Shown: positions 27,024 to 48,774, counted from the stretch's first letter. The stretch: 64,000 nucleotides of DNA from Methylococcales symbiont of Hymedesmia sp. n. MRB-2018 (GCA_003666385.1 QPIN01000063.1:62001-126000), one strand, 5' to 3'. Notes: generated by a model not told the origin, from the sequence alone. Numbers and translations: made by a program.

Positions 27024-28042
27024 CTCAAAGCGTGACCTTTTTGAACATTCTCCCTGACAGTTTTACCGAGTACTGATTCATAAAACTTTGGAGCCAGTCC
27101 AAAACCAGGTCGAATACTTTTTATGTGCTCTTTTGTAATAATTTCACCCGCTTTAATATCTTTTACAAAATATAACGACCGACGAAACTTAACATTGCCT
27201 TCTTCACTGGATTTACGACCATAATCAACTTTTCCTAATGCCTGCCAAGCCGTTGTAGCACCTTTGCATAACGCCTCTAGCTCAGGAGCTTGCAAAGAAA
27301 AACTATCATCGGCGCCACCCGCGCTTCTATCCAGCGTTACATGCTTTTCTATAATCGACGCACCTAACGCGACACTCGTAATAGCTGTTGTATTATCAAG
27401 CGTATGGTCAGACAAACCCGTAACCAAGCCAAAACGTTTCTGCATATCAACCATTGTTTTCAAATTATAATCTTCGGCTGGTGCAGGATAACCACTTACA
27501 CAATGTAAAATAGCTAACTCCTTACAACCACCCTCTTTAGCTGCTTGAACGGCCTCCCCAATCTCTTCTACATCCGCCATGCCGGTTGAAATAATCATCG
27601 GCTTTCCAGTGCTGGCTACATATTTTATTAATGGCAGATCAACGACTTCAAAAGAAGCTATTTTATAAGCAGGCGTATTCAAGTCTTCCAGTAAATCAAC
27701 GGCACTATTATCAAAGGGCGAACTAAAAATGGTAATCCCTAGTTTTCGTGCATAATCGAATAATGGTTTATGCCATTCCCACGGCATATATGCACTCTGA
27801 TACAACTCATACAAACTTTGGCCATCCCATAAACCACCCTCAATCATGAACTCCGGTTCACGACTGTCCAAGGTAATGGTGTCTGGTTTATAGGTTTGTA
27901 GCTTTACAGCATCGGCACCAGCGTTTTTCGCCATTTCAATTATTTTGAGGGCATTATTGATGTCGCCATTATGGTTGGCCGACATTTCGGCAATGATGTA
28001 GGGCGGTTGCTGTGAATCGATGATTCTATTGTTGATTTTCAT
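27005..28042 (-). CDS. pseI: Pseudaminic acid synthase
   Basis: 345 residues of the NeuB family. Condenses phosphoenolpyruvate with 2,4-diacetamido-2,4,6-trideoxy-L-altrose to give pseudaminic acid. The TIM barrel has IAEMSANHNGD, KLQTYKPDTI and IIEKHVTLDR. The C-terminal antifreeze-like SAF domain contains RRSLYFVKDIKAGEIIT. GGLWDGQSLYELYQSAYMPW is typical of PseI rather than sialic or legionaminic acid synthases. Its ATG lies inside the end of a HEPN gene (17-bp overlap) and its stop overlaps the next gene by 19 bp. Translation is thus tightly coupled along this operon. Confidence 0.94.
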   Translation of the reverse strand: MKINNRIIDSQQPPYIIAEMSANHNGDINNALKIIEMAKNAGADAVKLQTYKPDTITLDSREPEFMIEGGLWDGQSLYELYQSAYMPWEWHKPLFDYARKLGITIFSSPFDNSAVDLLEDLNTPAYKIASFEVVDLPLIKYVASTGKPMIISTGMADVEEIGEAVQAAKEGGCKELAILHCVSGYPAPAEDYNLKTMVDMQKRFGLVTGLSDHTLDNTTAITSVALGASIIEKHVTLDRSAGGADDSFSLQAPELEALCKGATTAWQALGKVDYGRKSSEEGNVKFRRSLYFVKDIKAGEIITKEHIKSIRPGFGLAPKFYESVLGKTVRENVQKGHALRWDFLK

Positions 28043-28514
28043 TGTTGTAGATTTTAAATTTCTTTAAGCAAAATTGTTTAACAGTCTGATAAACAACCAA
28101 TAGTTCATCACTGCTATTAAATATATCAGTAATATTTTCTACCACCTCAGTAGTATTGAATGAATACTCGTGTGCTATTTGATTTCTAACCTCTCTCAAA
28201 TTTAGCCATTGTGTTTTATTAATAATTTCTAGTTCCTCTAGTCTATTCAAGATGTCAATAAAAGTTTTTCGCTTAACATCTTCTTTTGATAGTATCAAAA
28301 TAGCTGGTAATACTCTTTCACCTAGAGTGTCTTGTAGTTTTGAAAATCTAAACACTAGTTGGTCAGCAAAACTAATTAACACATCATCAAATTTTTCATA
28401 ATCGCTAGTAGATAATGGCATTGTGTGCTTTAAATATTTTTTAGCAGCGATGATCCTTAAAATATGTTGATCACATTCATAAAGTTTTTCTTTAAGACTG
28501 TTATTGGGGTTCAT
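28026..28514 (-). CDS. HEPN-domain protein B, HepT-like
   Basis: 162-residue all-helical protein. Near the C-terminus LREVRNQIAHEY contains the full RX4HXY motif (RNQIAHEY) of HepT/HEPN ribonuclease toxins. In HepT-MntA systems the Tyr is the residue adenylylated by the partner. The start overlaps the nucleotidyltransferase stop by 4 bp (ATGA). The end overlaps pseI by 17 bp. A toxin, or a nucleotidyltransferase-dependent regulator within the sugar operon, are both possible. The paralogue HEPN-A precedes it. Confidence 0.85.
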   Translation of the reverse strand: MNPNNSLKEKLYECDQHILRIIAAKKYLKHTMPLSTSDYEKFDDVLISFADQLVFRFSKLQDTLGERVLPAILILSKEDVKRKTFIDILNRLEELEIINKTQWLNLREVRNQIAHEYSFNTTEVVENITDIFNSSDELLVVYQTVKQFCLKKFKIYNNENQQ

Positions 28515-28798
28515 AGCAATATTCCATGCTTTAAAGCCTCTTGCTCTATTGGTCTTGTTGCATCTTTAGCAACCACAATATCAATTTTTTGATCGCCAAT
28601 TTTATGCTTTAAATCTACCAAAAAATCAATTTTCTTTTTATTTAAGTGTTTTCTATTGTCTGTAACGATATACAAATCAATATCTCCACCCTTTATATTA
28701 TCATCCACTCTACTACCAAAAAGGAACACGCTACCTGTTTTAAAGGTTTTATCAAAGCTGTGTTTGATTGCATTGATTTCAGTTTTATTGATTCTCAT
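28511..28798 (-). CDS. Minimal nucleotidyltransferase B, MntA-like
   Basis: 95 residues of the DNA polymerase beta superfamily. VFLFGSRVDDNIKGGDIDLY carries the GSX10DXD metal and nucleotide site, with a second acidic residue in KIDIVVAKD. In MntA-HepT modules such proteins add AMP to the HEPN partner and neutralise it. It overlaps HEPN-A upstream by 14 bp and HEPN-B downstream by 4 bp, so the order is MNT-A, HEPN-A, MNT-B, HEPN-B, pseI. Confidence 0.9.
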   Translation of the reverse strand: MRINKTEINAIKHSFDKTFKTGSVFLFGSRVDDNIKGGDIDLYIVTDNRKHLNKKKIDFLVDLKHKIGDQKIDIVVAKDATRPIEQEALKHGILL

Positions 28799-29252
28799 TT
28801 AGTGTATTTTTAGCTTTTAAATAGCTATTGTGTAATTGCGTATATGATTTTTTGGCTAATAATAAATGGGTTAATAACTCTGATATATCATCAACATACT
28901 CATCAACCAATTTATTTCTAAGTAAACGAATATCTAGCCAATCATTAACATTGTCAACAATATTTAGGCGTTCCAGTTTATTCAAATTATTAATGGCACT
29001 AGAACTAATTTCACCTAGTTTAATTAATAAAAGTGGTGTGAGTTTGTCAATAAAAGTATCTTGCATACGGCAAAATTTACTACCAAATGACTCTAATTTA
29101 TCAATGCCTTCAGGTTTTTCTAGAATGTTTTTTAACCAGCTTTCATCTAAATTTTGTTGATTAAATAACCTTTGGGAAACATCAAATAACAAAACATCTT
29201 CTTTTGCTAATACGCCCATAATTTGTTTGATTCTTGTATCAATCTCATTCAT
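28785..29252 (-). CDS. HEPN-domain protein A, degenerate active site
   Basis: 155 residues, of the same helical build and position as HEPN-B. The motif region reads IRLLRNKLVDEY. Arg, Asn and Tyr are kept, but the catalytic His of RX4HXY is Asp. The Tyr that a nucleotidyltransferase would modify remains. It overlaps the MNT-A stop by 4 bp and MNT-B by 14 bp. This suggests loss of ribonuclease activity with retention of partner binding; that is inference. Confidence 0.8.
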   Translation of the reverse strand: MNEIDTRIKQIMGVLAKEDVLLFDVSQRLFNQQNLDESWLKNILEKPEGIDKLESFGSKFCRMQDTFIDKLTPLLLIKLGEISSSAINNLNKLERLNIVDNVNDWLDIRLLRNKLVDEYVDDISELLTHLLLAKKSYTQLHNSYLKAKNTLNENQ

Positions 29253-29548
29253 AGGGTAATACCAGTCCTTAGTGCTTCTTTGTGAATATTGGCTAATTTT
29301 TGCCCATGATACCTAGTAATAATATCTATTTTTTGCTCACCTAATTTTTGCTGTATATTGGAATTTAATCTTAATGCTTTACGCCATAAATCATCGTCCT
29401 GCTCAACAACATTTATCATTAAATCAATATCACCACCTTTTGCATTATCATCCACTTTTGAGCCAAATAATATCACCGTGGCTGAATTTCCAAAAATGGC
29501 AATAGCTTCTGCTTTTATGGTTTTTATTTGTAGTTGGCTAAGACGCAT
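29249..29548 (-). CDS. Minimal nucleotidyltransferase A, MntA-like
   Basis: 99 residues from the ATG at 29548 (MRLSQLQIKTIK). This start is preferred to one 81 bases upstream because paralogues B and C begin at the same place. VILFGSKVDDNAKGGDIDLM holds the GSX10DXD motif; the C-terminal EQKIDIITRY supplies a further acid. It pairs with HEPN-A through a 4-bp overlap. A broken relative lies at 31424-31524. Confidence 0.88.
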   Translation of the reverse strand: MRLSQLQIKTIKAEAIAIFGNSATVILFGSKVDDNAKGGDIDLMINVVEQDDDLWRKALRLNSNIQQKLGEQKIDIITRYHGQKLANIHKEALRTGITL

Positions 29549-29653
29549 AACCATTGATTTTATACTAATAGAGATCTTTGCATAAATATGAATAATCACC
29601 AAAATGCCAATTTTTACCAACTTGGGCATAATCTTTTATTTTGGTAATTAGTA

Positions 29654-32299: not shown

Positions 32300-32792
32300 C
32301 CCAGGTTGCGGTTGATATTGACCTGTCAAAATTCTTTCCAATTTTTTAGGCTTCAGTTTTAAAGGCAAAACTATTGTTTGGCATCCCAAAAGTTTGGAAA
32401 AGTTCAAACACCGAGTGCGAGAACTGACCAATCGAATATAGGGCGTGTCAATGCAAGTCAAAATCCAAAAGTTAAGTATTTATTTACGAGGCTGGATAAA
32501 CTACTTTGGGATAGCGAATCAATATCAACAAACCGTTGAATTAGACGGCTGGATAAGGTGCAGAATTAGGATGTGTTATTGGAAACAGTGGCGAAAACCA
32601 CGGACGAAAATACGCAAGCTAATGAAATTAGGGATTGAAAAACACGGTGCAATTTTAACTGGATTAAGCAGTAAATCCTACTGGATAAACGCAAAAACCC
32701 CTTGTATTAATAAGGGGTTAGGAAAAGAATATCTGGAAAATCAAAGGCTATACTCATTAAGAGATGGCTGGATTAAGTATCACTACGGTTAG
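32300..32792 (+). pseudogene. Group II intron reverse transcriptase/maturase remnant
   Basis: VDIDLSKFF (reverse transcriptase motif) is joined by a deletion to LGFSFKGKTIVWHPKSLEKF. After ELTNRI an in-frame TAG replaces what is usually a Trp before GVSM. The maturase-specific domain follows (LSIYLRGWINYFGIANQYQQ, LDGWIRCRIR, WKQWRKPRTK). Several lesions make it inactive. Intron domains V-VI follow it. Confidence 0.85.
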
Positions 32793-34775: not shown

Positions 34776-35708
34776 TTAGCATAATTTTTCATTATTTATT
34801 ATGTTGCCTTTTATTTTTGCTAGACCTCGCTCGTCTAAATCTATTCGTGTTCGTATTGGCACTAAATTCCCCTTTATTTTTTCATTAATTTTATCAATTC
34901 CAGTCATGTTCTTATTTGAATTTGATTTTCCAATTAAGTATCTCAAAGATAGTCTAAAATTTTCAGTTTCAGACTTTACTGGCATAGTGCCATGCAATGT
35001 GCAATTATGCCAAATACCAGAATAACCTGTTCTCCCCGTCAAAACCTTTTCTTCAACCCTAATTTCGCGCCCATCATCCTTGTAACTCCACAAATTCCCA
35101 TCTTTTTTTAATTTATGAGGAAACAAGGTGGCACCGAATTTGTGAGTCTTGGGTAAAATATATAATGGCGAGTCAAACTCGCTAACATCATGTAAATATA
35201 CATAAAGTGTTAAAAAGGTGGAGGGATCTAAATCTGTAGACCCTTTTGGCCAATCAATAATATCTTGATGAAAATCAATACCTCTAAAATAAGTTATATC
35301 TCTATATTCCGGCTTAACATAAGCACCCAAGTTAGCCACATTGATATTGTTTATCTTCTTCTTAATCCATTTGGGTAGCCATGTATCTGGTACACCACAG
35401 ACTGCCTTTTTTAAAACAATTTCATAATCATCTCCCAGCATTTCTTGAATAGTTTTTAAGATAATTTCATTATTTTCTATACAACTCAACTCTTCTTTAA
35501 ATTGATTTAAAAAGTTAAACTCTACAGTTGGATTTGCTTTCAAATTATTCTTTTGAAGCTTGTATGTTTTCTCATCCATAAATATATTTTTATCAAACTT
35601 TCTGTTGGTGATCATTTTTTTATACAAGGCATTTACCTTATTAACATCAAGAATCTCTCCAAAATAAAAAAGACCATCTTCTATCAAATTTTCTAGTTTA
35701 CTGTCCAT
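34776..35708 (-). CDS. Phytanoyl-CoA dioxygenase (PhyH)-like Fe(II)/2OG oxygenase
   Basis: 310 residues. The metal triad appears as GIDFHQDIIDWP (His147, Asp149) and NCTLHGTMP (His239), with a 2-oxoglutarate-binding Arg in FRLSLRYLI (about 252-256). LYVYLHDVSEFDSPLYILPK is typical of the PhyH fold. Its start overlaps pseH by 11 bp, so it belongs to the sugar operon. It may hydroxylate a pseudaminic acid precursor, the finished glycan or its attached acyl group; this is inference. Its 3' end lies next to RAYT debris. Confidence 0.82.
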   Translation of the reverse strand: MDSKLENLIEDGLFYFGEILDVNKVNALYKKMITNRKFDKNIFMDEKTYKLQKNNLKANPTVEFNFLNQFKEELSCIENNEIILKTIQEMLGDDYEIVLKKAVCGVPDTWLPKWIKKKINNINVANLGAYVKPEYRDITYFRGIDFHQDIIDWPKGSTDLDPSTFLTLYVYLHDVSEFDSPLYILPKTHKFGATLFPHKLKKDGNLWSYKDDGREIRVEEKVLTGRTGYSGIWHNCTLHGTMPVKSETENFRLSLRYLIGKSNSNKNMTGIDKINEKIKGNLVPIRTRIDLDERGLAKIKGNIINNEKLC

Positions 35709-36195
35709 AATATTTATCCTTTGTCAATAGCATTTTTATTACTGTTTTTTTATCATTACCTCTAATGATTTTATATTTTTGTATTGGTTTAAATCCAAAG
35801 TTAGTATGCATCTTTATGACAGCAGTATTAAAATCAAGTATTTCACATAACAATGAACCAAAATTCTTAACATCAAAAGCATATTTAAGGGCTTCTGACT
35901 CAAGAACCTTAAATAAATAAATTTTTTTTCTATTACTAAGGTGATCTAAATTTTTAAAATAGAATCCCCAATAATTATCGCACTTAGATTGATTAAAACA
36001 AACAACACCATAATCAGTGGAGTCATGGGAAAATATAAAATATTGCCTAGAAGTATCGTTTTTAATTTTCCCCCACCAATTTAAATGCTCATCTAAATCA
36101 ATAACATGATTATCAAACATAACCATTCTATTTCTAGCTAGATTTCTCCATTGTAAAATTGTTTCTAAATCATTATTTTTTATCTCTCTTAACAT
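35698..36195 (-). CDS. pseH: UDP-4-amino-4,6-dideoxy-N-acetyl-beta-L-altrosamine N-acetyltransferase
   Basis: 165-residue GNAT-fold enzyme, third step of the pseudaminic acid pathway, acetylating the 4-amino group. It begins LREIKNNDLETILQWRN. HLNWWGKIKND and the end DFNTAVIKMHTNFGFKPIQ follow the PseH pattern. The acetyl-CoA loop is weakly conserved, as is common in PseH. It lies 15 bp after pseG and overlaps the PhyH gene. Confidence 0.88.
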   Translation of the reverse strand: MLREIKNNDLETILQWRNLARNRMVMFDNHVIDLDEHLNWWGKIKNDTSRQYFIFSHDSTDYGVVCFNQSKCDNYWGFYFKNLDHLSNRKKIYLFKVLESEALKYAFDVKNFGSLLCEILDFNTAVIKMHTNFGFKPIQKYKIIRGNDKKTVIKMLLTKDKYYGQ

Positions 36196-36210: not shown

Positions 36211-37104
36211 CTAAAGTAATTTATCAATATATTCACTGAGTTTAATTATTTTATTTTTACTTAAAATCATATAATTATAATCTTGTAAATACTCAGAGAT
36301 ATATCGTTGATTATCGGCAGTTTTAATAGCAACAAATTGCAGTTTTAAATACATCACTTCATACACAATTACACTTGGGGTAATTATAGCAAAATCGCTA
36401 TTATCCATTAATGCGGCAATATTAGAGTGGTTGATATGTATATTTACTTTTTTATGTTGTTTGGCAAAAGCAAGCAGGCTGTCGATATTAAGATTAGCGT
36501 TAGTGGTGGCTAAATTAACAGTTATATGGCTAAATTCAGTTAATACTTTTAGCACTTTTAGGCTTATATTCGCAGTGTCAGCACCACCCATTGCCACAAA
36601 GACGATTGGATTTTGTTTGTTAATTTGGCGTTTTTTGGGTTGTATGTTTCTAAATTCATCACGAATCAGGGTGTATTTTGCACCGCATCTTATTTCACAA
36701 AAATCAGGCACTAGATTTTTATATTGTTCTGTTTTGGCGTAAATATTATGGTTTAGCAAAATATCGCAATAATGTTTATCATAAACATCATCAAAACTTA
36801 GAATTTTTACTGCGGTTTTTTCTTTAATGGCTTTTTCAAATTTATGGTCAATGCCATAATGGTCAAAAACCAGCATATTGATTGCTAGTTGTTTGATATT
36901 GTGTGTTAATTCATCAATGCAATTGGTTTTTAATGTAAGCAATTTATAACCCTTATCAATGATTTTCTGATTAACGTTGCCGTCTAAATTTTGAGCTGCA
37001 AAGATAATATTATCAACCTCATATTGCTCCGCTAATACTAGGCATCGCATTAAATGCCCTAAGCCGATTGTTGAGGATGAATCAACTCTGAATAATATAT
37101 TCAT
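36211..37104 (-). CDS. pseG: UDP-2,4-diacetamido-2,4,6-trideoxy-beta-L-altropyranose hydrolase
   Basis: 297 residues. Releases UDP to give the free diacetamido-trideoxy-altrose that PseI uses. The N-terminus RVDSSSTIGLGHLMRCLVLA is the PseG/MurG-like glycine-rich loop with the catalytic His region. FDDVYDKHYCDILLNHN and FVAMGGADTANIS follow. Length is close to C. jejuni PseG. It is followed by pseH. Upstream (37105-37371) is about 270 bp of AT-rich DNA with no gene, probably its promoter, next to insertion-sequence debris. Confidence 0.92.
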   Translation of the reverse strand: MNILFRVDSSSTIGLGHLMRCLVLAEQYEVDNIIFAAQNLDGNVNQKIIDKGYKLLTLKTNCIDELTHNIKQLAINMLVFDHYGIDHKFEKAIKEKTAVKILSFDDVYDKHYCDILLNHNIYAKTEQYKNLVPDFCEIRCGAKYTLIRDEFRNIQPKKRQINKQNPIVFVAMGGADTANISLKVLKVLTEFSHITVNLATTNANLNIDSLLAFAKQHKKVNIHINHSNIAALMDNSDFAIITPSVIVYEVMYLKLQFVAIKTADNQRYISEYLQDYNYMILSKNKIIKLSEYIDKLL

Positions 37105-37739: not shown

Positions 37740-38216
37740 TTATTTATGCTTCACCTTATTATTATTGAAGTGAATCAATTTTTGATAAATTTTTTCTATT
37801 GTTTGTTTTTTATTAAAAACAGCATTAATTGCAATACTCATTTCTTCGGGTTCATCTTCATAAGTATGAGACAAGGCGTTTCTAATCTGTCTTAGTTCGA
37901 CCCATTGTTTAGCACTTTCTAAAATATTAAGTTTTTCTAATCGATTTAATAGGTCAATAAAGGGAATGTCTTCTAAGTCTTCTTCTAACGCCATGGCGAT
38001 TACTTTAAAAAGTCTCTTTCCTATTGCATCTTGCAACTTTGTAAACCGAAATAAATATTGATCGATATGCTCTACTTGGTCTTCATTAAGGTTTTTATAT
38101 TTATCTCCGTCTAAGGGTAATGTCGCTGCTATTTTTTTATGCGCACTGTTCATCCTTAAAATATGTTTGTCACATTCACTGATGATTTTTTGTAATTTTA
38201 GCTGATAAATACTCAT
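37740..38216 (-). CDS. HEPN-domain protein C, HepT-like
   Basis: 158 residues. KLQKIISECDKHILRMNSAH and the C-terminal LRQIRNALSHTY carry the full RX4HXY motif (RNALSHTY), so the ribonuclease and the modifiable Tyr may both be intact. Similar throughout to HEPN-B (for example FRFTKLQDAIGKR against FRFSKLQDTLGER). The start overlaps MNT-C by 4 bp. Its end abuts IS debris instead of a pse gene. Confidence 0.87.
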   Translation of the reverse strand: MSIYQLKLQKIISECDKHILRMNSAHKKIAATLPLDGDKYKNLNEDQVEHIDQYLFRFTKLQDAIGKRLFKVIAMALEEDLEDIPFIDLLNRLEKLNILESAKQWVELRQIRNALSHTYEDEPEEMSIAINAVFNKKQTIEKIYQKLIHFNNNKVKHK

Positions 38217-38512
38217 AGCTTCACCCCTGTTCTTATTGCTTCTTTTTCTATGGGTCTATTTCTATCTTTGGCAAGAATGACATCAACTTGTTGTTCACCA
38301 ATGACTAACTGCAAAGCTACCAAGAATTTAATTTTTCTTTCGTAGAGTTCCCGAGTACTACTTGTATGCTCAGGGATGATATATAAGTCTATATCCCCAC
38401 CTTTTTTATCGTCATCCACTCGTGAGCCAAATAGATAAACCTCTGCGCCTTTATCAAAATATTGCTGCGTTATGTTTACAATGGCTTTTCGATCAACACT
38501 CGATACTCTCAT
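38213..38512 (-). CDS. Minimal nucleotidyltransferase C, MntA-like
   Basis: 99 residues. EVYLFGSRVDDDKKGGDIDL gives the GSX10DXD site, and QQVDVILAKD the later acid. It starts 2 bp after the pseF stop, so it is translated from the sugar operon mRNA. It is paired with HEPN-C. Family and arrangement match pair B, next to pseI. Confidence 0.9.
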   Translation of the reverse strand: MRVSSVDRKAIVNITQQYFDKGAEVYLFGSRVDDDKKGGDIDLYIIPEHTSSTRELYERKIKFLVALQLVIGEQQVDVILAKDRNRPIEKEAIRTGVKL

Positions 38513-38514
38513 TA

Positions 38515-39213
38515 TTATAAGGCTCCTTCTTTGTTAAGCACCTGAGCCATTATCTCTGCTCTTACCCAATCTTCTGGTGTATCTATGTCTTGCACCAGAT
38601 GCCTTGGCAAAGGGTACGGACTGGCAAGTTCTGAGAAAACAGGCTTCATTTCCCTAAAGGCTTCTGATGTACCCCAATAAAATTGCCCTGCATCGTGAAA
38701 TGCTTCTTCTAAATCTTGTGAACGCTGATCCAACTGCTCTATTTGAAACATTTCAACTCTGTTATTAGCCGTTATTTTAATGGCACGCTGAATAGGGAAA
38801 GGGAAACTGGTTACTGTAAAACAGTATTCAGCCCCTGTATTTTTCATCTGTTGATAAGCTTTTTGTAGTGCTTCTGCCCGCGTAAGAGGAGCCGTTGCAT
38901 ACAGGCAGCAAACTTCATTAGGGCGTTCATCATTATTATCAAACCACTCAATAGCTTGTTTTATAACGGGCAAGGTTCCTGCATAATCATCGGCCAGTGC
39001 TTTAGGTCGTATAAAAGGAACTTCCGCACCATAACTTTTAGCGACTTCAGCTATTTCTTGATCATCTGTTGAGACAATAATGCGGTCAAAACAGTTGCTT
39101 TTTAAAGCCACTCCAATGGAGTATGCGATTATTGGACTGCCATTGAAGTCCTTAATGTTTTTCCTTGGGATACGTTTACTACCACCTCTAGCAGGGATTA
39201 CGCAGAGCTTCAT
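38515..39213 (-). CDS. pseF: Pseudaminic acid cytidylyltransferase
   Basis: About 232 residues. Activates pseudaminic acid to CMP-pseudaminic acid, the last cytoplasmic step before transfer. The nucleotide loop is IPARGGSKRIPRKN; IVSTDDQEIAEVAKSYGAEV and YATAPLTRAEAL follow. ATG at 39213 is chosen over the GTG two codons earlier because AAGGTG lies six bases before it. An 85-bp gap separates it from the GT2 gene upstream. MntA-like gene C follows directly. Confidence 0.93.
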   Translation of the reverse strand: MKLCVIPARGGSKRIPRKNIKDFNGSPIIAYSIGVALKSNCFDRIIVSTDDQEIAEVAKSYGAEVPFIRPKALADDYAGTLPVIKQAIEWFDNNDERPNEVCCLYATAPLTRAEALQKAYQQMKNTGAEYCFTVTSFPFPIQRAIKITANNRVEMFQIEQLDQRSQDLEEAFHDAGQFYWGTSEAFREMKPVFSELASPYPLPRHLVQDIDTPEDWVRAEIMAQVLNKEGAL

Positions 39214-39298
39214 TAGCACACCTTTGTTAAAATATACTGAACATCATTAAGCCTTGTAAAAAGCAGGCGGTAAGATCCACGCTTTATGCACATCGTCA

Positions 39299-40276
39299 TT
39301 AAAGCCTCCACCACCACCTCATCACTTTAGGGAATCTCTCAAGTAAATAAAGCTCTCTCTTTTTCCGGGATTTAACTCCCTCCTTAAAATAAATGTTACG
39401 TCGATAATCTGGGCACAATAATTTAACTTTATCTAATAGATTTAGCAGTTCTAACTCACTAAATTTTCTTACAATTTTTCTATATGAATTCAGATAATAG
39501 AACCCAACAAAACGCCACTCTACCTCTGGCTTGAATGCGTCATAAAAACCGCGTTTTTTATATTCATTTAAGAATAATTGAGCTGAATGCAATCTATCCA
39601 AATAACTGTCATCGACTTTGTGAATAGTAGAGTTGGGGGTATCTCTGTAGAAATAAAGCCCTTCGTCTACTTTCGCTAGTTTCTTAGTGTACATTAGGTG
39701 CAAGCTAGCAATCGCATTATCTTCATAGCTAATCCCCTCAGGGTATTGAATATTATTATTTATCCAAATACTCCTTTTTACTATCTTTGTAACCATTCGC
39801 CCCCCTCTCAGAATCAACCTTTTTCGCTTATTCTGGTCAAGGCAACCCGTTTGCCCCTTATCATAACTAACTTCATATCTTTTACTCCCATCTGAACGCA
39901 GTTGAATAAGATCACAATCAACAATATCTGCCTTTTTTACTTTTGCCAATGTATAAAGTTTTTCATACATATCTAAAGCAATATAATCATCCGAATCAAC
40001 GAGACCGATATACTCTCCTTGAGAAACTTTTATCCCCATATTTCTTGCAGCCCCCTGCCTTCTATTGAAGGGGAAGCGAATAAGTTTGATTTTATCTGGG
40101 AACCTAGCTGAAATTTTTTCACAAATCCTTTGTGTTTGTCTATCCGATCCATCATCGACAATAATTACTTCAATATTGTTAAGCGTCTGAGCAAGTAACG
40201 ACCTCAAACATGGAAATAGTAACTTGCCAGTATTAAATACAGGCACTATGACACTAACACTAATTTTTTTAGTCAC
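39299..40276 (-). CDS. Family 2 glycosyltransferase
   Basis: 325 residues with a GT-A fold: SVIVPVFNTGKLLFPCLRSL, IVDDGSD for nucleotide binding, and GLVDSDDYIA as the DXD-type metal site. A basic C-terminal tail (KEGVKSRKKRELYLLERFP) may bind the membrane; no span is seen. It overlaps pseC by 4 bp, so the product likely adds a sugar to the same glycan. Donor and acceptor cannot be predicted. Confidence 0.9.
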   Translation of the reverse strand: MTKKISVSVIVPVFNTGKLLFPCLRSLLAQTLNNIEVIIVDDGSDRQTQRICEKISARFPDKIKLIRFPFNRRQGAARNMGIKVSQGEYIGLVDSDDYIALDMYEKLYTLAKVKKADIVDCDLIQLRSDGSKRYEVSYDKGQTGCLDQNKRKRLILRGGRMVTKIVKRSIWINNNIQYPEGISYEDNAIASLHLMYTKKLAKVDEGLYFYRDTPNSTIHKVDDSYLDRLHSAQLFLNEYKKRGFYDAFKPEVEWRFVGFYYLNSYRKIVRKFSELELLNLLDKVKLLCPDYRRNIYFKEGVKSRKKRELYLLERFPKVMRWWWRL

Positions 40277-41430
40277 AATAAAACCTTGGTTAATATTTTA
40301 ATAACTTGGTCTTGCTTATCCAATGTAAGCCCTTGATATAAAGGAATGCTTATCGCACGGCTATAGTAATGCTCAGCGTTGGGATAATCACCTTGTTTAA
40401 ACCCCATTGTTTGATAGTAGGGCTGAGTATGCACAGGAATGTAGTGCAAGTTCACACCTAAACCACTACTGCGCAATTCATCAAAAACTTGCTTGTGCGT
40501 TTTGCCAAGGTTTTTAAGTTTAAGCTGTATTGGGTAAAGATGTAGTGCTGAATAGACTTCACTTGATTGATAAGGTAGTTTAATAGGTAAGCCTTTTAAC
40601 AGCTTATGATAGCGTTGTTGGAGAACATGACGTTTTTTTACAAACTTATCCAAGCGTTGCATTTGGCTAATGCCTAGTGCCGCTTGTAGTTCGGTCATAC
40701 GGTAATTAAAGCCCAGATCAACTTGCTGATAGTACCAGCCACCGTCCGCCTGTTTTGTCATTAATGTAGGGTCACGGGTAATGCCATGGCTGCGTAATAA
40801 TTGCATTTTTTCTGCTAACGCTGGCTGATTAGTAGTGGCTAAGCCGCCCTCTGCCGTTGTGATGATTTTTACTGGGTGGAAACTGAAAACCGCTATATCC
40901 GAGTAGTTACAGCTTCCCACTGGCTGATCTAAATATTGGCCACCAATGGCATGACTGGCATCTTCAATAATATTAAAACCGTATTCTTCACTTAACTGAT
41001 GAATCCTATCCATACCACAAGACTGCCCCGCAAAGTGAACAGGGAGGACAACTTTAGGTAACTTGCCGTTCTTTTTGGCTACAATTAACTTTTCCTCAAG
41101 TGCCTTGGGGCATAAGTTATAGGTTTGAGGGTCAATATCAACAAAATCTACCTTTGCCCCACAATAAAGCCCACAATTCGCAGAAGCAACGAATGTAATG
41201 GGGGTTGTCCATAAGCAATCGCCTTTGCCTAAACCAAGTGCAAGGCAAGCAAGGTGGAGTGCCGAGGTAGCACTATTCGTTGCTACCGCATAATCCGCAT
41301 TTACTCTTTTACTGACGACAGTTTCAAACAAGGGAACTTTTGGCCCTTGCGTCAGAAAATCTGATCGCAGCACCTCAATAACCGCATCAATGTCTGCTTG
41401 GTTTATATCTTGCCTGCCATATGGAATCAA
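40273..41430 (-). CDS. pseC: UDP-4-amino-4,6-dideoxy-N-acetyl-beta-L-altrosamine transaminase
   Basis: 385-residue PLP enzyme of the DegT/DnrJ/EryC1 family, second step of the pathway. It opens IPYGRQDINQADIDAVIEVL, has TNSATSALHLACLALGLGKG, and the PLP Lys188 sits in FSFHPVKIITTAEGG. The full length and ELQAALGISQMQRLD are as in PseC. It is linked by 4-bp overlaps to the gene before and the gene after. A truncated near-identical copy lies at 43083-43537. Confidence 0.94.
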   Translation of the reverse strand: MIPYGRQDINQADIDAVIEVLRSDFLTQGPKVPLFETVVSKRVNADYAVATNSATSALHLACLALGLGKGDCLWTTPITFVASANCGLYCGAKVDFVDIDPQTYNLCPKALEEKLIVAKKNGKLPKVVLPVHFAGQSCGMDRIHQLSEEYGFNIIEDASHAIGGQYLDQPVGSCNYSDIAVFSFHPVKIITTAEGGLATTNQPALAEKMQLLRSHGITRDPTLMTKQADGGWYYQQVDLGFNYRMTELQAALGISQMQRLDKFVKKRHVLQQRYHKLLKGLPIKLPYQSSEVYSALHLYPIQLKLKNLGKTHKQVFDELRSSGLGVNLHYIPVHTQPYYQTMGFKQGDYPNAEHYYSRAISIPLYQGLTLDKQDQVIKILTKVLL

Positions 41431-42626
41431 CTTACTAACTCTTTTAATTTTTGGCTGATTTTACTACTGGAAGCTTCAGGAAAATATTTTTTAATAGCGT
41501 CAAATTGTGCTTCCCCAATTAATTTTAATTTCATTTCATCAAGTAAAACATCCAGAGTCTCCAACCTCTCTTGCACACCAATTTCTATCAAGTCATGTGT
41601 CAATTGACCCTTTTCATCTTCAAAATGAAATGATAACGGTTTTCCTCGTTTTATATTTAAGTACGGCGTTATATCAAATACTGGCACTTGACGAGCAGTC
41701 AAAAATAAGCCAGAAGTTGAAAACATTGAAAGGCAAGCTCTCAACTTAATATCAATGATTGTTAAAGAGTCACTAAACTCTTTGACACACGAGTATTTCT
41801 TTTGAATATCTCGGTACTCATGAATATCATTTTCACGAGGGTGATGCTTTATATATACGTTAAATTTTTTCTGGTCGCAAAATTCTAATACTTGTGAAAA
41901 CACCTTCAACGCCATTTCTCGAGTTGACCCGTATGGGGTGTATTTATTTCTAGTATTAACCAGAACATTCATTGATGAAGCATCAAACAAACTGGGCTTA
42001 TCATAACTAGAGGATAAACTAGGGGCACCCGATACAAAAAAAACGTCTTTATATGTTACTACCCACCTAGTGGATAATATAGAGTTCTCCAACCATAAAT
42101 CAGCCTTTACAGCTGGCTCAATATTAAGTAACTCCTCTCCTTTTTTGGCTTTTTGCAAGCCTACCGCATGTGGAAATATTACCATTTTTGCTTCTTTATT
42201 TACTTTGAACGCACTAAGCAACTGAAAACTATCGTGCAACTGATAATCTCTAAATATAAAATCAAAGTTCTGATTAAAACCTAATTTTGTACCACAGAAA
42301 TCATGAATAGACTGCATCCTGTTTTTAAAATACCTTATTTTATTCAAATGTTTGCCTAAAACTTTACACAGCCCCTTCCTTATATAGCTAGGCTCAAGTA
42401 AAGTCACATTTGCTTTATCCAAACCATAGCTTTCATAAATCTGTTTATTCTCTCTAGCGCTTTTCCCAACCTTATTTAAGTAGATAAATATATCGAAGCT
42501 TTCTGCCTCACTTGATTTAATAAAGCCAGAAATCCAATCAAGTTCACCTAATGACTTGTGAATAAATATTAACAGTTTAAATCTAGTCGAGACCTCAGTA
42601 TAACCAACAACTTTATCCACCTTCAT
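41427..42626 (-). CDS. GT-B-like surface glycan transferase, copy 2
   Basis: 399 residues, paralogous to the gene at 43534-44712. Shared features are IFIHKSLGELDWI at the start, YIKHHPRENDIHEYRDIQKK, and FSTSGLFLTARQVPVFDITP, which recall TagB/TagF-type polyol phosphate transferases or polysialyltransferase-like GT-B proteins. The exact reaction is unknown. The first 16 residues (through GYTEVSTRF) have no match in the paralogue and are encoded by DNA resembling an R1 end. GGAGAAG lies before the ATG. It overlaps pseC by 4 bp. Confidence 0.72.
   Translation of the reverse strand: MKVDKVVGYTEVSTRFKLLIFIHKSLGELDWISGFIKSSEAESFDIFIYLNKVGKSARENKQIYESYGLDKANVTLLEPSYIRKGLCKVLGKHLNKIRYFKNRMQSIHDFCGTKLGFNQNFDFIFRDYQLHDSFQLLSAFKVNKEAKMVIFPHAVGLQKAKKGEELLNIEPAVKADLWLENSILSTRWVVTYKDVFFVSGAPSLSSSYDKPSLFDASSMNVLVNTRNKYTPYGSTREMALKVFSQVLEFCDQKKFNVYIKHHPRENDIHEYRDIQKKYSCVKEFSDSLTIIDIKLRACLSMFSTSGLFLTARQVPVFDITPYLNIKRGKPLSFHFEDEKGQLTHDLIEIGVQERLETLDVLLDEMKLKLIGEAQFDAIKKYFPEASSSKISQKLKELVS
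42589..42605. repeat. Possible R1 MITE end remnant
   Basis: GAGACCTCAGTATAACC matches the R1 terminal GAGACCTCAGCATAACTC over most positions. It lies inside the first codons of the transferase copy 2. A chance match is possible. Confidence 0.4.
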
Positions 42627-43011: not shown

Positions 43012-43080
43012 TTAAAAACAAAAATACTTAACCATCTGATAAATAGCCACTAATTCATCAGTATCGAGTAAGTCATGCAT
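43012..43080 (-). pseudogene. HEPN gene 3' remnant
   Basis: 23 codons MHDLLDTDELVAIYQMVKYF then CF and stop, nearly identical to the remnant at 31269-31340. It is joined on the other side to truncated pseC at about 43083. Confidence 0.7.
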
Positions 43081-43082
43081 TT

Positions 43083-43537
43083 ATACCGTATTCTTCACTT
43101 AACTGATGAATTCTAGCCATATCACAAGATTGCCCTGCAAAGTGAACAGGGATGACAACTTTAGGTAACTTACCGTTCTTTTGGGCTACAATTAACTTTT
43201 TCTCAAGTCTATTGGGCCATAAGTTATAGGTTTGAGGGTCAATATCAACAAAATCTACTTTTGCCCCACAATAAAGCCCACAATTCGCAGAAGCAACGAA
43301 TGTAATGGGGGTTGTCCATAAGCAATCGCCTTTGCCTAAACCAAGTGCAAGGCAAGCAAGGTGGAGTGCTGAGGTAGCACTATTCGTTGCTACCGCATAA
43401 TCCGCATTTACTCTTTTACTGACGACAGTTTCAAACAAGGGAACTTTTGGCCCCTGCGTCAGAAAATCCGAGTGCCGCACCTCAATAACCGCATCAATGT
43501 CTGCTTGGTTTATCTCTTGCCTGCCATACGGGATCAA
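43083..43537 (-). pseudogene. Truncated pseC copy
   Basis: The first 151 residues of PseC (MIPYGRQEINQADIDAVIEV onward) are nearly identical to the intact gene, then cut at EEYG by the mosaic junction. The frame runs on to a stop at 43073. The PLP Lys and the rest are missing, so it is inactive. It is attached to a paralogous transferase by the same 4-bp overlap as the intact pair. Confidence 0.93.
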
Positions 43538-44712
43538 TTTGATAATTCCTCAAGCTTGTTATAAATCAAATTATTAGAGTTTGCTGGAAAGTGTTTTATT
43601 AATGAATCAAATTGTTTTTTTGAAAGACTTGTCAAGACCTCTGCTATAAATACATCATCCAAATCGACCAACCTTTCCTGCACCCCTATTTCCATTAGGT
43701 CATTCGTAAGCCGGCCTTGTTTATCACCATAGTGTAGAGAATTAACTGATGATGGCTTAGATTTAAATTCATTTAAAGTGACATAAGGCGTTATATCAAA
43801 CACAGGAACTTTTCTAGCTGTAAGAAACAAACCAGATGTTGAAAAGAATGATAAGCAAGCTCTAAACTCCATGCTGATATTTGTTAATGTGCCAGTATAT
43901 TCAACCGCACAGCTATATTTTTTTTGAATATCACGATATAAATAAAGCTCATGGTCACGCGGATGATGTTTTATATGTGCCGTTAAACCTTTTCGTTCAC
44001 AATAACTCAGAATTTGGTCAAACCTTTCTAACACTGCCTCCTTAGTGCAACCATGTAAATCAAACTCATTCCTTGTATTAACCAATACATTACAAGAACT
44101 AGGGTTAAACAATCCCTCTAAGTCATAAAAAGATGATAGCCCAGGTGCTCCTGTTGCATAAAACACATCGGGCATCCACTGGTATGCTAAGGTGCAGTTT
44201 TCAAGCCATAAGTCAATTTTCACTCGTGGAGGATGCCCATAAACAATAAAGCCCGCATTCCTTTTTGGAATAGAAACCGCATGTGGAAACGCAACAACTT
44301 TTGCTTTTCTATTAGCCCTTAAAAAACAAGACAACTCAAACGCGTACCTTAGTTGGCACTCCCTAAATATAAAGTCGTAGTCTTCCTCATAGCCTAGCTC
44401 TTTCACATTCTTCAAACGAAAGTATTTAGCCAATGGCTTAAAAAAATCAACTTTTTTCTTTAGCTTTATAAGCCGCCTATCTATCAACTTATAAAGTTTT
44501 TTGGAATAATTTTTATTATTAAGTAGCGTTACGTTTTCTTTATCTAAGCCGTACTTATCAAGAATATCTTTTTTATCTTCATAACTAGAACCCATCTTAT
44601 TAAGATAAACAAAGAAGTCTAAAGTCTCCGCTTCCTCCGACTTAATAAACGGAGCAATCCAATCAAGTTCACCCAATGATTTATGAATAAAAATTAAAAC
44701 CTTTTTTCTCAT
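43534..44712 (-). CDS. GT-B-like surface glycan transferase, copy 1
   Basis: 392 residues from ATG 44712 (MRKKVLIFIHKSLGELDWI), preferred to a start 60 bases upstream because it overlaps the HAD stop as ATGA. HIKHHPRDHELYLYRDIQKK and FSTSGLFLTARKVPVFDITP are shared with copy 2. CDP-polyol or sugar transfer to a surface polymer is the likely role; the donor is not known. It heads into the truncated pseC. Confidence 0.75.
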   Translation of the reverse strand: MRKKVLIFIHKSLGELDWIAPFIKSEEAETLDFFVYLNKMGSSYEDKKDILDKYGLDKENVTLLNNKNYSKKLYKLIDRRLIKLKKKVDFFKPLAKYFRLKNVKELGYEEDYDFIFRECQLRYAFELSCFLRANRKAKVVAFPHAVSIPKRNAGFIVYGHPPRVKIDLWLENCTLAYQWMPDVFYATGAPGLSSFYDLEGLFNPSSCNVLVNTRNEFDLHGCTKEAVLERFDQILSYCERKGLTAHIKHHPRDHELYLYRDIQKKYSCAVEYTGTLTNISMEFRACLSFFSTSGLFLTARKVPVFDITPYVTLNEFKSKPSSVNSLHYGDKQGRLTNDLMEIGVQERLVDLDDVFIAEVLTSLSKKQFDSLIKHFPANSNNLIYNKLEELSN

Positions 44713-45356
44713 CTTTTCAATAACTCTTTTAAATTTTGCACCGACTCTAGTTCTGATGAAACTCCAACCCACTCACTCCATTCTGAGATAAATAAAAAAT
44801 CCATTTCTGCTTGAACTGCCACCTGATAATCATATTGGCTATCACCTAAGAAAAGTCCTTTCTCTTTAATATTTCCGTTAGCCGCTTCTCTTCTTAAAAT
44901 TAACTCTTTATTGTCTGGGCTACCGAAAATGCCGCCATCAAAAAGGTGGGCTATATTCCTTAATGAAAATATTTCTCTTAATTCCTTTTCGTCGCTGCCT
45001 GAAACAATTAGCCAACAAGTGCCCTTGGTCTGCTCCCGTAGTGCATCAAGTCCTTCGGCAACACCACAAGTCAACAATCCCTTTCGTACTTTTTGGGCAA
45101 AGAGTTGCAACAAATTATCAAGCTCTTCTTTTTCAATGTTTTTATTCAAAACAACCTGAATAAAGTATTCAAATTTCTTATAGCGAGACATGCCTCCATG
45201 CAACATATGGTATTCCACTAATTTATTTGCCGCTTCCAAACCATATTGTTTAGCCACATCAAAAAAAGCCTGCGTCTTAACCTGGTTTGAGTTAAGCACC
45301 ACCCCATCACAATCAAAAACCAGTGTTTCATATTGGCTCAAAAAGGTATTTTTCAT
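44709..45356 (-). CDS. HAD-family phosphatase
   Basis: 215 residues from ATG 45356. LVFDCDGVVLNSN is motif I with the nucleophile Asp; IVSGSDEKELRE is motif II; LFLGDSQYDYQVAVQA is motif IV. A helical cap follows motif I (type C1). It is coupled by ATGA overlaps to a CMP-sugar synthetase upstream and a transferase downstream. In this position it may act like KdsC, removing phosphate from a keto sugar acid before activation. Confidence 0.88.
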   Translation of the reverse strand: MKNTFLSQYETLVFDCDGVVLNSNQVKTQAFFDVAKQYGLEAANKLVEYHMLHGGMSRYKKFEYFIQVVLNKNIEKEELDNLLQLFAQKVRKGLLTCGVAEGLDALREQTKGTCWLIVSGSDEKELREIFSLRNIAHLFDGGIFGSPDNKELILRREAANGNIKEKGLFLGDSQYDYQVAVQAEMDFLFISEWSEWVGVSSELESVQNLKELLKR

Positions 45357-46090
45357 AGCCACCGCTCTCTAAGCGCCGCCTCAACGATATCCACATCTTC
45401 TGGTATATCTACAGCAAAGCTACTTGCTTGGGTTTCGACCATCAGGATTACTTTATCCCATTCAAAAAACCGAATAATTTCGATATCTTCACTTTGCTCT
45501 AGGGTACTTTTACGCCCAAACTTTGCATACCCATCCAATTCTTCTTTATTAAACGCATAAATACAAACTTGCTTATGGTAGTTTTCAGGCTGATTCTTAT
45601 TGCCTTTATACCCTGGAATGGATGCCCTAGACATATAAACTAAACGCTGACCTTCTGTAACAATCACTTTGGGAATGTTTACATTCTCGGGGTTTTCCTT
45701 TCTATCTAAACTCGTATAAGCATTGATTACACAGTTAAGATGTTGTTTTTTTAACTCAATAACTTTAATGATGTCTTCAGGGTTAACTAACGGTTCATCA
45801 CCTTGCACATTGACATAAATATCAGCACTCAGCTTTGCTGCCACTTCTGCCAGTCTATCTGTTCCTGTTAAGCACTTATCACTCGTCATCTCAACATTAA
45901 AGCCCGCCTTTAGCACCACGCTGGCTATTCGTTCATCATCCGTTGCAATATAAACATTGGCCAAGCCAACAGCCACAGCACTTAACTCGGCAACCCAAAG
46001 AATCATTTCTTTACCCAACAATTTGACTAAAGGCTTACCTGGAAAACGTGATGATTTATAACGTGCAGGAATAACAACGATTGCCCTCAT
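45353..46090 (-). CDS. KdsB-like CMP-sugar synthetase
   Basis: 245 residues. IPARYKSSRFPGKPLVKLLG, CLTGTDRLAEVA, NVQGDEPLVNPEDI and VYMSRASIPGY follow the 3-deoxy-manno-octulosonate cytidylyltransferase family. The genes around it are not Kdo synthesis genes. It overlaps an aldolase and a HAD phosphatase gene by 4 bp each. Therefore it may activate another ulosonic acid. Housekeeping kdsB cannot be excluded, since no other copy is visible here. Confidence 0.83.
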   Translation of the reverse strand: MRAIVVIPARYKSSRFPGKPLVKLLGKEMILWVAELSAVAVGLANVYIATDDERIASVVLKAGFNVEMTSDKCLTGTDRLAEVAAKLSADIYVNVQGDEPLVNPEDIIKVIELKKQHLNCVINAYTSLDRKENPENVNIPKVIVTEGQRLVYMSRASIPGYKGNKNQPENYHKQVCIYAFNKEELDGYAKFGRKSTLEQSEDIEIIRFFEWDKVILMVETQASSFAVDIPEDVDIVEAALRERWL

Positions 46091-47727
46091 TTTTCCATTC
46101 CATAAATTGATTTGGTTGCTATGTCATATTTAGTTGGCGTAATTGAAGTTAAATTCACAGTATTAGGGTTAATCTTATACGCATCAAAAATATCATCTAC
46201 TTCATGCCGCCTAGAGTCATCTAATGTGTAGCCATCAAAACCAGCTAAAAGAACCTCGCTTACCTTTCCGCTATTAACTACGGCCAGTGCATAAGCTAAA
46301 ACTAGTGGGCTAGGTAAGGTACAGTTTTCTTTAGAAAACTCAAATACTCCAGGTTTCACACACATACCAAAATTAAATAGCTCTTTCATCGCTAGTTCTT
46401 GTTGGACATCAGCAGATAGCATATTAACTGGGACGACTAGTGGCTGTAATAAATTTGCATACTCTTGATAATCTGCCAACAGCCTGATGGGGTGACAAGC
46501 CACACGCAGATCTATCAAGCTCCCATCAATATTATTTTGTGTATTTAAGGCAATGACAAAGGGCTTATTTAGCGCTATGTGTCGCTCAATTTCACACTTA
46601 TACCTTAATATGCTTGGCCCATTGCCTAGGATAAGAACCTTTTTACTTTTCATTAAATCAACAGGTGCCCAGTCCCCACCGCCTTCTTTAGCAGCAAAAG
46701 ACTTAGCACTGTTCAATGTATCCCAACTAAACTTTCTGGCTCCATCGATCTTTAAATGATCGATGACTGCCATAATATCTTCATTGCTATAACGTTTATC
46801 TGCCAACATTTCTTGGATGTAAGACGGGTGAATATTGTATTTTCCAGCCAAGTAATAATATGGGTTTACCCCCCAGCCAAAGTGATTCTTCATTTCGTTG
46901 AATTTACCACTAATTAATTCAAACAGTTTTATTGGGCTTGACTTTATATCCCTAAACTCATCGACAATCATTGTTAAGTATTCTGTTTGCGCATTACCTG
47001 CACCTCGCCCCATCCCTGTTACTGTCCCGTCCAACCAACAGACCCCATCTTTTATAGCCTGTTTACTGTTAGAGATAGCCTGCCCCATATTGTCATGGGT
47101 ATGTATACCCAAGTCGCCTGCCCAGCCTGCTCGAAATGAACTTATTATTTTACTTGTTCTTTCTGGCGTTAAGCTTCCCATACTATCCGCAAAATACAGT
47201 ACATCTATCGGGTATTCGCTTGCAAGAGAGGCTAAATCGGTTAACTCATCACTCGTGCACTCCGCTACTTGCATTAAGTTAAAGCCAACCAAATAACCCT
47301 TCTTTTTAAGCCATGTTGCGGCAGGCAAACAAGCACTAAACTCTTTCACATGACAGGCAATTCGAACAAGCGTGACAGGGGAGTCTTCTTTAGAATAAAA
47401 CAAGTACTCTAAGGTCTTTTCCAAATAAGCCGCCTGATCTTCTTTCCCGCTAAAGTCACCTGGCAACATTAACTCCGCCCCATTAATCATTACACCAATA
47501 CGCTCTTTCAAACCATTGGGGATAACTAAGTTGTTAATAAATGTATCGGTACTGTATGCACAGCCACCCTTGAACCCCTCGTTCTTTAATGTACGCAGAC
47601 CTATTTCAACAAAGTCGATATTCAACGCATCCATTGCTAACAGATATTCTGCTATTAGCTCTTGCGAAAAGTCCCAGTTATTGTAGTAACCACCGTCTCT
47701 TAATGTGCAATCAAGCAACTTCACCAT
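46087..47727 (-). CDS. HMGL-like aldolase fused to a LGNGPS-type domain
   Basis: About 546 residues from ATG 47727. The N-terminal TIM barrel has LLDCTLRDGGYYNNWDF (metal site), GLRTLKNEGFKGG, and LGIHTHDNMGQAISNS, as in 4-hydroxy-2-oxovalerate aldolase and isopropylmalate synthase-type DRE-TIM enzymes. After about residue 350 a second domain starts with KKVLILGNGPSILRY and contains LAGFDGYTLDD, recalling DUF115-type or sialyltransferase-like Rossmann domains. Such fusions occur in O-antigen loci. A role in making a keto sugar acid by aldol addition is inference. Confidence 0.8.
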   Translation of the reverse strand: MVKLLDCTLRDGGYYNNWDFSQELIAEYLLAMDALNIDFVEIGLRTLKNEGFKGGCAYSTDTFINNLVIPNGLKERIGVMINGAELMLPGDFSGKEDQAAYLEKTLEYLFYSKEDSPVTLVRIACHVKEFSACLPAATWLKKKGYLVGFNLMQVAECTSDELTDLASLASEYPIDVLYFADSMGSLTPERTSKIISSFRAGWAGDLGIHTHDNMGQAISNSKQAIKDGVCWLDGTVTGMGRGAGNAQTEYLTMIVDEFRDIKSSPIKLFELISGKFNEMKNHFGWGVNPYYYLAGKYNIHPSYIQEMLADKRYSNEDIMAVIDHLKIDGARKFSWDTLNSAKSFAAKEGGGDWAPVDLMKSKKVLILGNGPSILRYKCEIERHIALNKPFVIALNTQNNIDGSLIDLRVACHPIRLLADYQEYANLLQPLVVPVNMLSADVQQELAMKELFNFGMCVKPGVFEFSKENCTLPSPLVLAYALAVVNSGKVSEVLLAGFDGYTLDDSRRHEVDDIFDAYKINPNTVNLTSITPTKYDIATKSIYGMEK

Positions 47728-47775: not shown

Positions 47776-48774
47776 TTAAATCGCTCCGATATTCTCTTGA
47801 TTGGTAGCAATCCATGCTTTAAAAGCACTGTCACTCATCCAGTCATCATTACTATCACTAGCATAAACAAAACCTTCTTTTACCTTCACCCCATCTTTAA
47901 TACGTACTTCATCTGCTGCCCAATTATTAATCGTTGGCAGAATTTTAAAATGCTTTGGGTATTCATAAGTATAAGCGGCATCTTCGGCACTAATCATCTC
48001 TTCGTGTAGTTTTTCACCTGAGCGAATACCTATTATTTTCTGTTTGGCTTCTGGCGCAATAACTCTTGCAAGGTCTGTTACTTTCATTGACGGGATTTTT
48101 TTTACATAAACTTCCCCGCCTTCCATATCGTGAAAGGCATGCCAAACCAAATCTACGCCGTCTTCCAGTGAAATCATAAAGCGCGTCATTCGTTCATCTG
48201 TTATCGGCAAAACACCTTTATCTTTAATTGACATAAAGAAGGGAATCACCGAGCCGCGTGAACCCATAACATTGCCATAACGTACAACAGAAAAACGGGT
48301 AGCGTGCGATCCTGAATAGGAGTTACCCGCTACAAATAATTTATCTGAAACAAGTTTTGTTGCTCCATAAAGATTAATTGGACTACTGGCCTTATCGGTT
48401 GAGAGCGCAACTACTCCTTTAATATCTTTATCAATACAGGCATCAATCAGGTTCATCGCGCCGTTAATGTTTGTTTTCACACATTCAAATGGGTTGTATT
48501 CAGCCGTTGGAACAATTTTTGTTGCCGCAGCATGTACCACATAATCAACCCCATCTAACGCACGATAAAGCCGGTCTTTATCTCGCACATCTCCAATAAA
48601 AAAACGAACACGAGAGTCGCCTTCAAATTTCTTAGCCATTTCCCACTGCTTCATTTCATCACGTGAATAAATGATAATTTTTTTAGGATTAAATTTATCA
48701 AGCGTCATTGGCACAAAGGTATTGCCAAATGATCCTGTTCCACCAGTAAGAAGAATTGTTTTATTACTCAACAT
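47776..48774 (-). CDS. pseB: UDP-N-acetylglucosamine 4,6-dehydratase (inverting)
   Basis: 332-residue short-chain dehydrogenase/reductase, first step of pseudaminic acid synthesis. NAD loop LLTGGTGSFGNTF, then YSRDEMKQWEMAKKF, LSTDKASSPINLYGATK in the YxxxK region (YGATK) and VRYGNVMGSRGSVIPFF are as in PseB. It is the first gene of the sugar locus, with a 138-bp gap upstream holding an R5 palindrome and probably the promoter. A 48-bp gap separates it from the aldolase gene. Confidence 0.94.
   Translation of the reverse strand: MLSNKTILLTGGTGSFGNTFVPMTLDKFNPKKIIIYSRDEMKQWEMAKKFEGDSRVRFFIGDVRDKDRLYRALDGVDYVVHAAATKIVPTAEYNPFECVKTNINGAMNLIDACIDKDIKGVVALSTDKASSPINLYGATKLVSDKLFVAGNSYSGSHATRFSVVRYGNVMGSRGSVIPFFMSIKDKGVLPITDERMTRFMISLEDGVDLVWHAFHDMEGGEVYVKKIPSMKVTDLARVIAPEAKQKIIGIRSGEKLHEEMISAEDAAYTYEYPKHFKILPTINNWAADEVRIKDGVKVKEGFVYASDSNDDWMSDSAFKAWIATNQENIGAI

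Follow-up and report, generated by a model that had tools for sequence, protein, structure and literature searches.

The window analysed here is a stretch of 64,000 nucleotides from the Methylococcales symbiont of Hymedesmia sp. n. MRB-2018 (QPIN01000063.1:62001-126000), in which three adjoining genes encode a two-domain aldolase (ALD), a KdsB-like cytidine monophosphate (CMP)-sugar synthetase (CKS), and a HAD phosphatase. We rechecked the initial annotation of this three-gene cassette by gene calls, reading of the junctions, and a Pfam scan of the window proteins. The cassette and the gene that follows it are arranged as follows:

46087-47727, minus strand: ALD, two-domain aldolase of 546 amino acids (HMGL/DmpG-type barrel plus Maf/CstII-like C-terminal domain)
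46693-47727, minus strand: ALD N-terminal domain, residues 1-345, a class II pyruvate-aldolase-like TIM barrel
46090-46671, minus strand: ALD C-terminal domain, residues 353-546, with an MptE/Maf/GT42-like fold
45353-46090, minus strand: CKS, KdsB-like CMP-sugar synthetase of 245 amino acids with an altered presumptive sugar pocket
44709-45356, minus strand: HAD phosphatase, HAD_2 type, outside the KdsC family
43534-44712, minus strand: PST1, weakly polysialyltransferase-like (PF07388), a candidate CMP-sugar transferase

ALD begins at ATG 47727 or, alternatively, at TTG 47736. The sequence ATGA forms a 4-bp overlap at both junctions, at 46087-46090 between ALD and CKS and, taking the HAD start at its ATG, at 45353-45356 between CKS and HAD; the place, strand, and overlap-joined order given for the three genes in the initial annotation are correct. 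A third ATGA overlap connects HAD with PST1 at 44709-44712, and the translationally coupled unit thus consists of four genes and reaches 43534. The family assignments also stood, with Pfam E values of 7e-25 for ALD (HMGL), 2e-37 for CKS (cytidylyltransferase), and 9e-10 for HAD. The aldolase had been described as carrying an extra LGNGPS-like domain, and this stretch (approximately residues 367-372) indeed lies inside a separate, confidently folded domain, the Maf/CstII-like identity of which had not been recognized.

The AlphaFold2 model of ALD, built from 49 sequences, has a predicted local distance difference test (pLDDT) score of 92. The barrel matches the structure 3dxi first, followed by DmpG-type pyruvate aldolases (DmpG, 1nvm). 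Four residues, R10, D11, H209, and H211, are invariant in all 49 ALD sequences and align with R17, D18, H200, and H202 of DmpG, which we take to be its metal/pyruvate site, with His21 presumably the catalytic base. The marker motif of the ALD family is LDCTLRDGGYYNNWDF, and a GGYYNNWDF motif that is nearly invariant in ALD is unlike DmpG. Of the HMGL models matched, those of the hydroxy-oxovalerate aldolases give the highest score (110 bits, versus 70 bits for homocitrate synthase), and the score on the 4-hydroxy-2-oxovalerate aldolase model TIGR03217 is 95.8 bits, under the equivalog cut-off of 286. In its modelled fold and metal site, ALD resembles a class II pyruvate aldolase, lying outside the hydroxy-oxovalerate aldolase equivalog.

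Folded alone, the C-terminal domain of ALD reaches a pLDDT of 95.9. Its best structural match is the Maf flagellin glycosyltransferase 5mu5 (VIA Z 14.3 over 182 residues), and the next matches are SteA, an archaeal HPPK, CstII (1ro8, Z 10.9), other GT42-type enzymes (Z ~10.7), and mammalian sialyltransferases (Z ~8). The MptE-like family PF01973 is matched at E <= 0.1 by 21 of the 49 ALD members (best 1.5e-5), the window member not being among them. N395, Y479, D498, G499, and T530 are invariant and position 412 is mostly His or Asn, a pattern that suggests a live site. According to PMC11339370, the Maf_flag10 domain is similar to CstII, and a Maf is able to use both CMP-Kdo and CMP-Neu5Ac; the C-terminal domain, judged from its model, may bind or transfer the CMP-activated product. 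Since this fold also occurs in HPPK and thiamine pyrophosphokinase, the domain could instead be a kinase, but the operon context makes a CMP-sugar site the likelier reading. The motifs DxD, Ser, Lys, and GDSxxD are conserved in the HAD protein, which has no match to the KdsC model TIGR01670 and is hence not KdsC-like; the presence of a phosphatase in the cassette suggests that the aldol product is phosphorylated. PST1 scores 16.4 bits (E 0.007) on PF07388, whose gathering cut-off is 23.3, and its paralogue PST2, 50% identical to it, scores 29.4 bits (E 7.5e-7).

CKS stands close to KdsB, the CMP-activating enzyme for 3-deoxy-D-manno-oct-2-ulosonic acid (Kdo), and diverges from it at specific positions. 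On the KdsB model TIGR00466, it scores 139.6 bits, under the curated equivalog cut-off of 155.2; true KdsB proteins at 221-398 bits are held by 18 of 20 cassette genomes, and the cassette-type proteins fall tightly at 123-154 bits. CKS exceeds the cut-off of the KdsB subfamily PRK13368 (NF009905; 275.6 bits versus 255), and reaches 28.6 bits on the PseF model, the cut-off of which is 205.7. In a tree of 90 sequences that included CKS-type proteins, of which 55 were compared, and 34 KdsB, the CKS proteins form one side of a branch against the 34 KdsB with a support of 99/94; KpsU and the Aquifex KdsB have long branches near the CKS clade, which makes the deep placement unsure. The cytidine triphosphate (CTP)/metal residues R10, S13, K19, R79, Q96, D98, and D228 are the same in CKS and KdsB. 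Q96, D98, and D228, which match Gln98, Asp100, and Asp235 of E. coli KdsB, are kept in 55/55 CKS together with R10 and K19; the KdsB metal residues are named in PMC2901514. Three residues invariant in 34/34 KdsB, KpsU included, are changed in CKS, namely His to Q174 (53/55), Gly to C176 (53/55), and Gln to I205 (49/55). Four more positions that are fixed across the 34 KdsB differ in nearly all CKS, with K162 in place of Arg, M153 of Phe, L150 of Ala, and A226 of Gly, and the CKS clade gains K194 and D202. Most replacements at KdsB-invariant positions lie in the C-terminal part, and the KdsB C-terminal domain is involved in Kdo binding and dimerisation (PMC3149649). As E. coli KdsB is strict at C7 of Kdo (PMC12409901), the changes plausibly mean another substrate, and CKS would have a reshaped presumptive sugar pocket that plausibly accepts a sugar acid other than Kdo.

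Using ALD alone as the query, we scanned 84,980 species genomes and found 80 loci, nearly all of which matched along the full two-domain protein; with two loci from a further genome search and the window, the set comprised 83 loci, a few of them near-duplicates. Neighbouring genes were called by six-frame hidden Markov model searches, since long antisense open reading frames hide CKS in GC-rich pseudomonads. A CMP-sugar synthetase lies on the same strand within 4 kb downstream of ALD in 70 of the 83 loci, HAD lies within the same distance in 59, and both are present in 55. Such linkage argues against the aldolase acting in an unrelated pathway, a case that the initial annotation had considered. 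Two gene orders exist, ALD-CKS-HAD and ALD-HAD-CKS, the latter in many of the Vibrio, Shewanella, and Brenneria-type loci. The cassette occurs in Gamma- and Alphaproteobacteria, Campylobacterota, SAR11, and Prochlorococcus. About a dozen loci have another CTP_transf_3 protein in place of the KdsB-like enzyme, either downstream or just upstream of ALD, with scores that fall well short of the PseF and KdsB cut-offs; swapping of the cytidylyltransferase type is expected if the aldolase product gets activated, and hence supports CMP activation of the ALD product. No other gene family approaches the frequency of CKS and HAD in the 83 neighbourhoods, and the first genes downstream of the cassette are assorted glycan genes, so the aldehyde partner probably comes from central metabolism. 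The pairwise distances of ALD, CKS, and HAD correlate (r 0.67-0.78), a value confounded by the species phylogeny and not used as main evidence.

The distribution is patchy, with the two-domain ALD in only 2 of 60 relatives of the host and in none of eight of the same genus. The C-terminal domain was found in 5 of 273 other genomes from the class of the host, always in a frame of at least 538 amino acids. Searches of plasmids and phages returned mostly single-domain HMGL enzymes, and the two-domain protein is present on three Leisingera plasmids, the one inspected in detail carrying the whole cassette within a polysaccharide locus. On a Leisingera caerulea plasmid (L099, 9986-12988), CKS is annotated as 3-deoxy-manno-octulosonate cytidylyltransferase, which is probably a misannotation. 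A separate MptE-like (PF01973) protein, sharing the fold class of the ALD C-terminal domain, is the first downstream gene in 6 of 55 loci (e.g., L019:11493-12392 and L094:11003-11902). In Marinobacter (L029:9600-11602), the genes after ALD encode a protein in which sialyltransferase-like motifs were identified by eye, and a kinase with weak similarity to WaaP/Kdo kinases.

The host genome contains kdsA (403 bits) and kdsC (178 bits), both on contigs other than that of the cassette, and a separate kdsB on another contig adjoining lpxK, the latter named by eye. The check for housekeeping Kdo genes proposed in the initial annotation was thus run, and CKS is not the only kdsB-type gene of the host. 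Neither a KdsA match nor a KdsB over the cut-off was found in any of nine cassette-bearing Prochlorococcus genomes; in seven, the search returned a CKS-type protein at 132-147 bits alone, and the other two gave just fragments or weak matches. Cyanobacterial lipopolysaccharide is reported to lack Kdo (PMC4515613). The cassette therefore seems to function independently of the KdsA route.

Taken together, the cassette probably encodes a complete pathway of its own, leading to an ulosonic acid (a 2-keto-3-deoxy sugar acid) that is activated with CMP and is not Kdo. We observe the gene order, its conservation, the retained catalytic residues, the divergence at KdsB-invariant positions, and the occurrence without KdsA or KdsB; the fold of the C-terminal domain is predicted, and the reactions, the sugar identity, the use of pyruvate, and the transfer are what we infer from these sequence comparisons. 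The ALD barrel would bind a divalent metal via D11, H209, and H211 and form the pyruvate enolate with the assistance of R10. The enolate would be added to an aldehyde, for which a phosphorylated aldose (C3-C5) of central metabolism is the likeliest candidate, giving a 3-deoxy-2-ulosonate phosphate, from which HAD would remove the phosphate. CKS would then join the free sugar acid to CMP by the standard two-metal chemistry of KdsB, using its reshaped sugar pocket, and a transferase, for which the coupled PST1 and the Maf/CstII-like domain of ALD are candidates, would move the sugar to a surface glycan. The initial annotation had suggested that an aldolase in place of the synthase may provide a second, CMP-activated keto sugar acid, and this proposal is supported by the KdsB divergence and by the cassette genomes in which neither KdsA nor a true KdsB was found. 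More tentatively, and with considerable doubt, ALD could be a fusion that both makes and transfers: from pyruvate and an aldose phosphate it would build a 3-deoxy-ulosonic acid not described before, and the C-terminal domain of ALD would later use the CMP form of that acid. The cassette would then represent a third lineage of CMP-ulosonic acids next to Kdo and the nonulosonic acids, present in SAR11 and Prochlorococcus, which dominate in the ocean.

Several observations weigh against the proposed ulosonic acid route. HAD is missing within 4 kb of ALD in 24 of the 83 loci, some of which lie where a contig ends. The assemblies of the Prochlorococcus genomes derive from single cells and are incomplete in part, although nine misses of nine for KdsA and KdsB are unlikely to arise from incompleteness alone. 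The position of the DmpG base histidine is occupied by Tyr14 in 49/49 ALD, which makes the pyruvate chemistry uncertain. In addition, Methylotuvimicrobium buryatense and a Methyloprofundus metagenome-assembled genome (L017, L018: 9602-10363) have an HpcH/HpaI aldolase gene inserted directly after ALD and ahead of an alternative cytidylyltransferase, and ALD might catalyse another step in that operon.

Among the alternatives, it is unlikely that the cassette makes ordinary Kdo for a capsule or O-antigen by an alternative route built on an aldolase, with CKS as a capsule-type CMP-Kdo synthetase like KpsU. E. coli KpsU (1gq9) is the best PDB match of CKS and branches nearest to its clade, and the cassette could be the sole Kdo source in Prochlorococcus; however, the His, Gly, Gln, Arg, and Phe common to KpsU and all other KdsB compared are lost in the CKS clade, and the host genome already possesses kdsA, kdsB, and kdsC. 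It is rather improbable that ALD is a different HMGL-type carbon-carbon enzyme, using acetyl-CoA in a Claisen reaction or another keto acid to give a different carboxylated sugar, with the HpaI aldolase performing the pyruvate step in some strains. Tyr14, the GGYYNNWDF motif, and the HpcH/HpaI gene in the L017/L018 operon would fit such an enzyme, but the hydroxy-oxovalerate aldolases outscore homocitrate synthase among the HMGL models, and the HpcH/HpaI gene is exceptional, occurring in 5 of 82 loci with L006 and L018 being one site. Genes related to HpcH/HpaI are also located near the cassette in L070 and L079. Chance adjacency of unrelated pieces in a shuffled glycan locus is scarcely credible: surface-glycan loci are mosaic and that of the host contains a tandem duplication, but the 83-locus survey contradicts it, as the ALD, CKS, and HAD families are found together in many phyla, in either of two orders, and the correlated distances, subject to the same phylogenetic confounding, also speak against it.

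Apart from the cassette, the locus seems to hold a complete pseudaminic acid pathway, as the initial annotation had noted, with PseB upstream of ALD and the other pathway genes, listed here together with PST2, downstream of the cassette:

47776-48774, minus strand: PseB, directly upstream of ALD
41427-42626, minus strand: PST2, PST1 paralogue, in the gene run of PST1
40273-41430, minus strand: PseC-like aminotransferase, named by eye from sequence
38515-39219, minus strand: PseF, CMP-pseudaminate synthetase
36211-37104, minus strand: PseG
35698-36195, minus strand: GNAT acetyltransferase, probable PseH
27005-28042, minus strand: NeuB-family synthase, probable PseI

A truncated copy of the PseC-type aminotransferase follows PST1 at 43073-43537 and is 95% identical over 459 bp to the intact copy, which follows PST2, indicating a tandem duplication of a transferase-PseC unit within the gene run. 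Two MNT-nucleotidyltransferase/HEPN-type pairs and a lone HEPN-like gene, recognized by eye, are located among the pse genes (37740-38512, 28026-28514, and 28785-29629), and a fragment at 32445-32792 resembles, by eye, the C terminus of a group II intron maturase.

To our knowledge, CMP-activated ulosonic acids are essentially Kdo and the nonulosonic acids. We found no description of the cassette in the open-access literature, a search restricted to open-licence papers and hence weak evidence of novelty, and such an aldolase is unmentioned in the papers on the Vibrio KMM 8419 capsule and on E. coli K-typing. We rate the cassette as a variant of the CMP-ulosonic acid pathways that is apparently unstudied and widely shared. 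If true, bacterial surface chemistry would gain a new acidic sugar, made by a third route that relies on an aldolase, a clade labelled 'KdsB' in databases would probably not make CMP-Kdo, and marine SAR11 and Prochlorococcus would carry a surface sugar that has perhaps never been looked for. The three enzymes are small and probably soluble, which permits direct testing in vitro.

Several known systems come close to the cassette or to its parts. The N-terminal domain of ALD belongs to the subfamily of BVU_2661 (PDB 3dxi), a putative aldolase of Bacteroides vulgatus, including the motif LDCTLRDGGYY.NWDF; only the N-terminal domain of that protein was solved, and the entry title gives no function. 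The 4-hydroxy-2-oxovalerate aldolases DmpG/BphI share the fold and the R, D, H, and H metal/pyruvate residues with ALD, but ALD has Tyr14 for the catalytic His and the Maf/CstII-like fusion, and no partner aldehyde dehydrogenase was seen. The Maf flagellin glycosyltransferases and GT42 sialyltransferases such as CstII have the same fold as the C-terminal domain at ~13-16% identity, whereas this domain is fused to an aldolase and its transferase role is putative. The nonulosonic acid pathways (NeuB/PseI/LegI with NeuA/PseF/LegF) likewise activate a 2-keto-3-deoxy acid with CMP; in contrast, the cassette is without a NeuB-type synthase, and CKS is KdsB-like instead of PseF-like. The Kdo pathway (KdsA, KdsC, and KdsB) corresponds to the proposed order of condensation, dephosphorylation, and CMP activation by a KdsB-fold enzyme. 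However, the cassette synthase is an HMGL/DmpG-type barrel instead of the phosphoenolpyruvate-dependent KdsA, the phosphatase is of the HAD_2 type rather than KdsC, the presumptive sugar pocket of the synthetase is altered, and a single operon within a variable glycan locus holds the genes.

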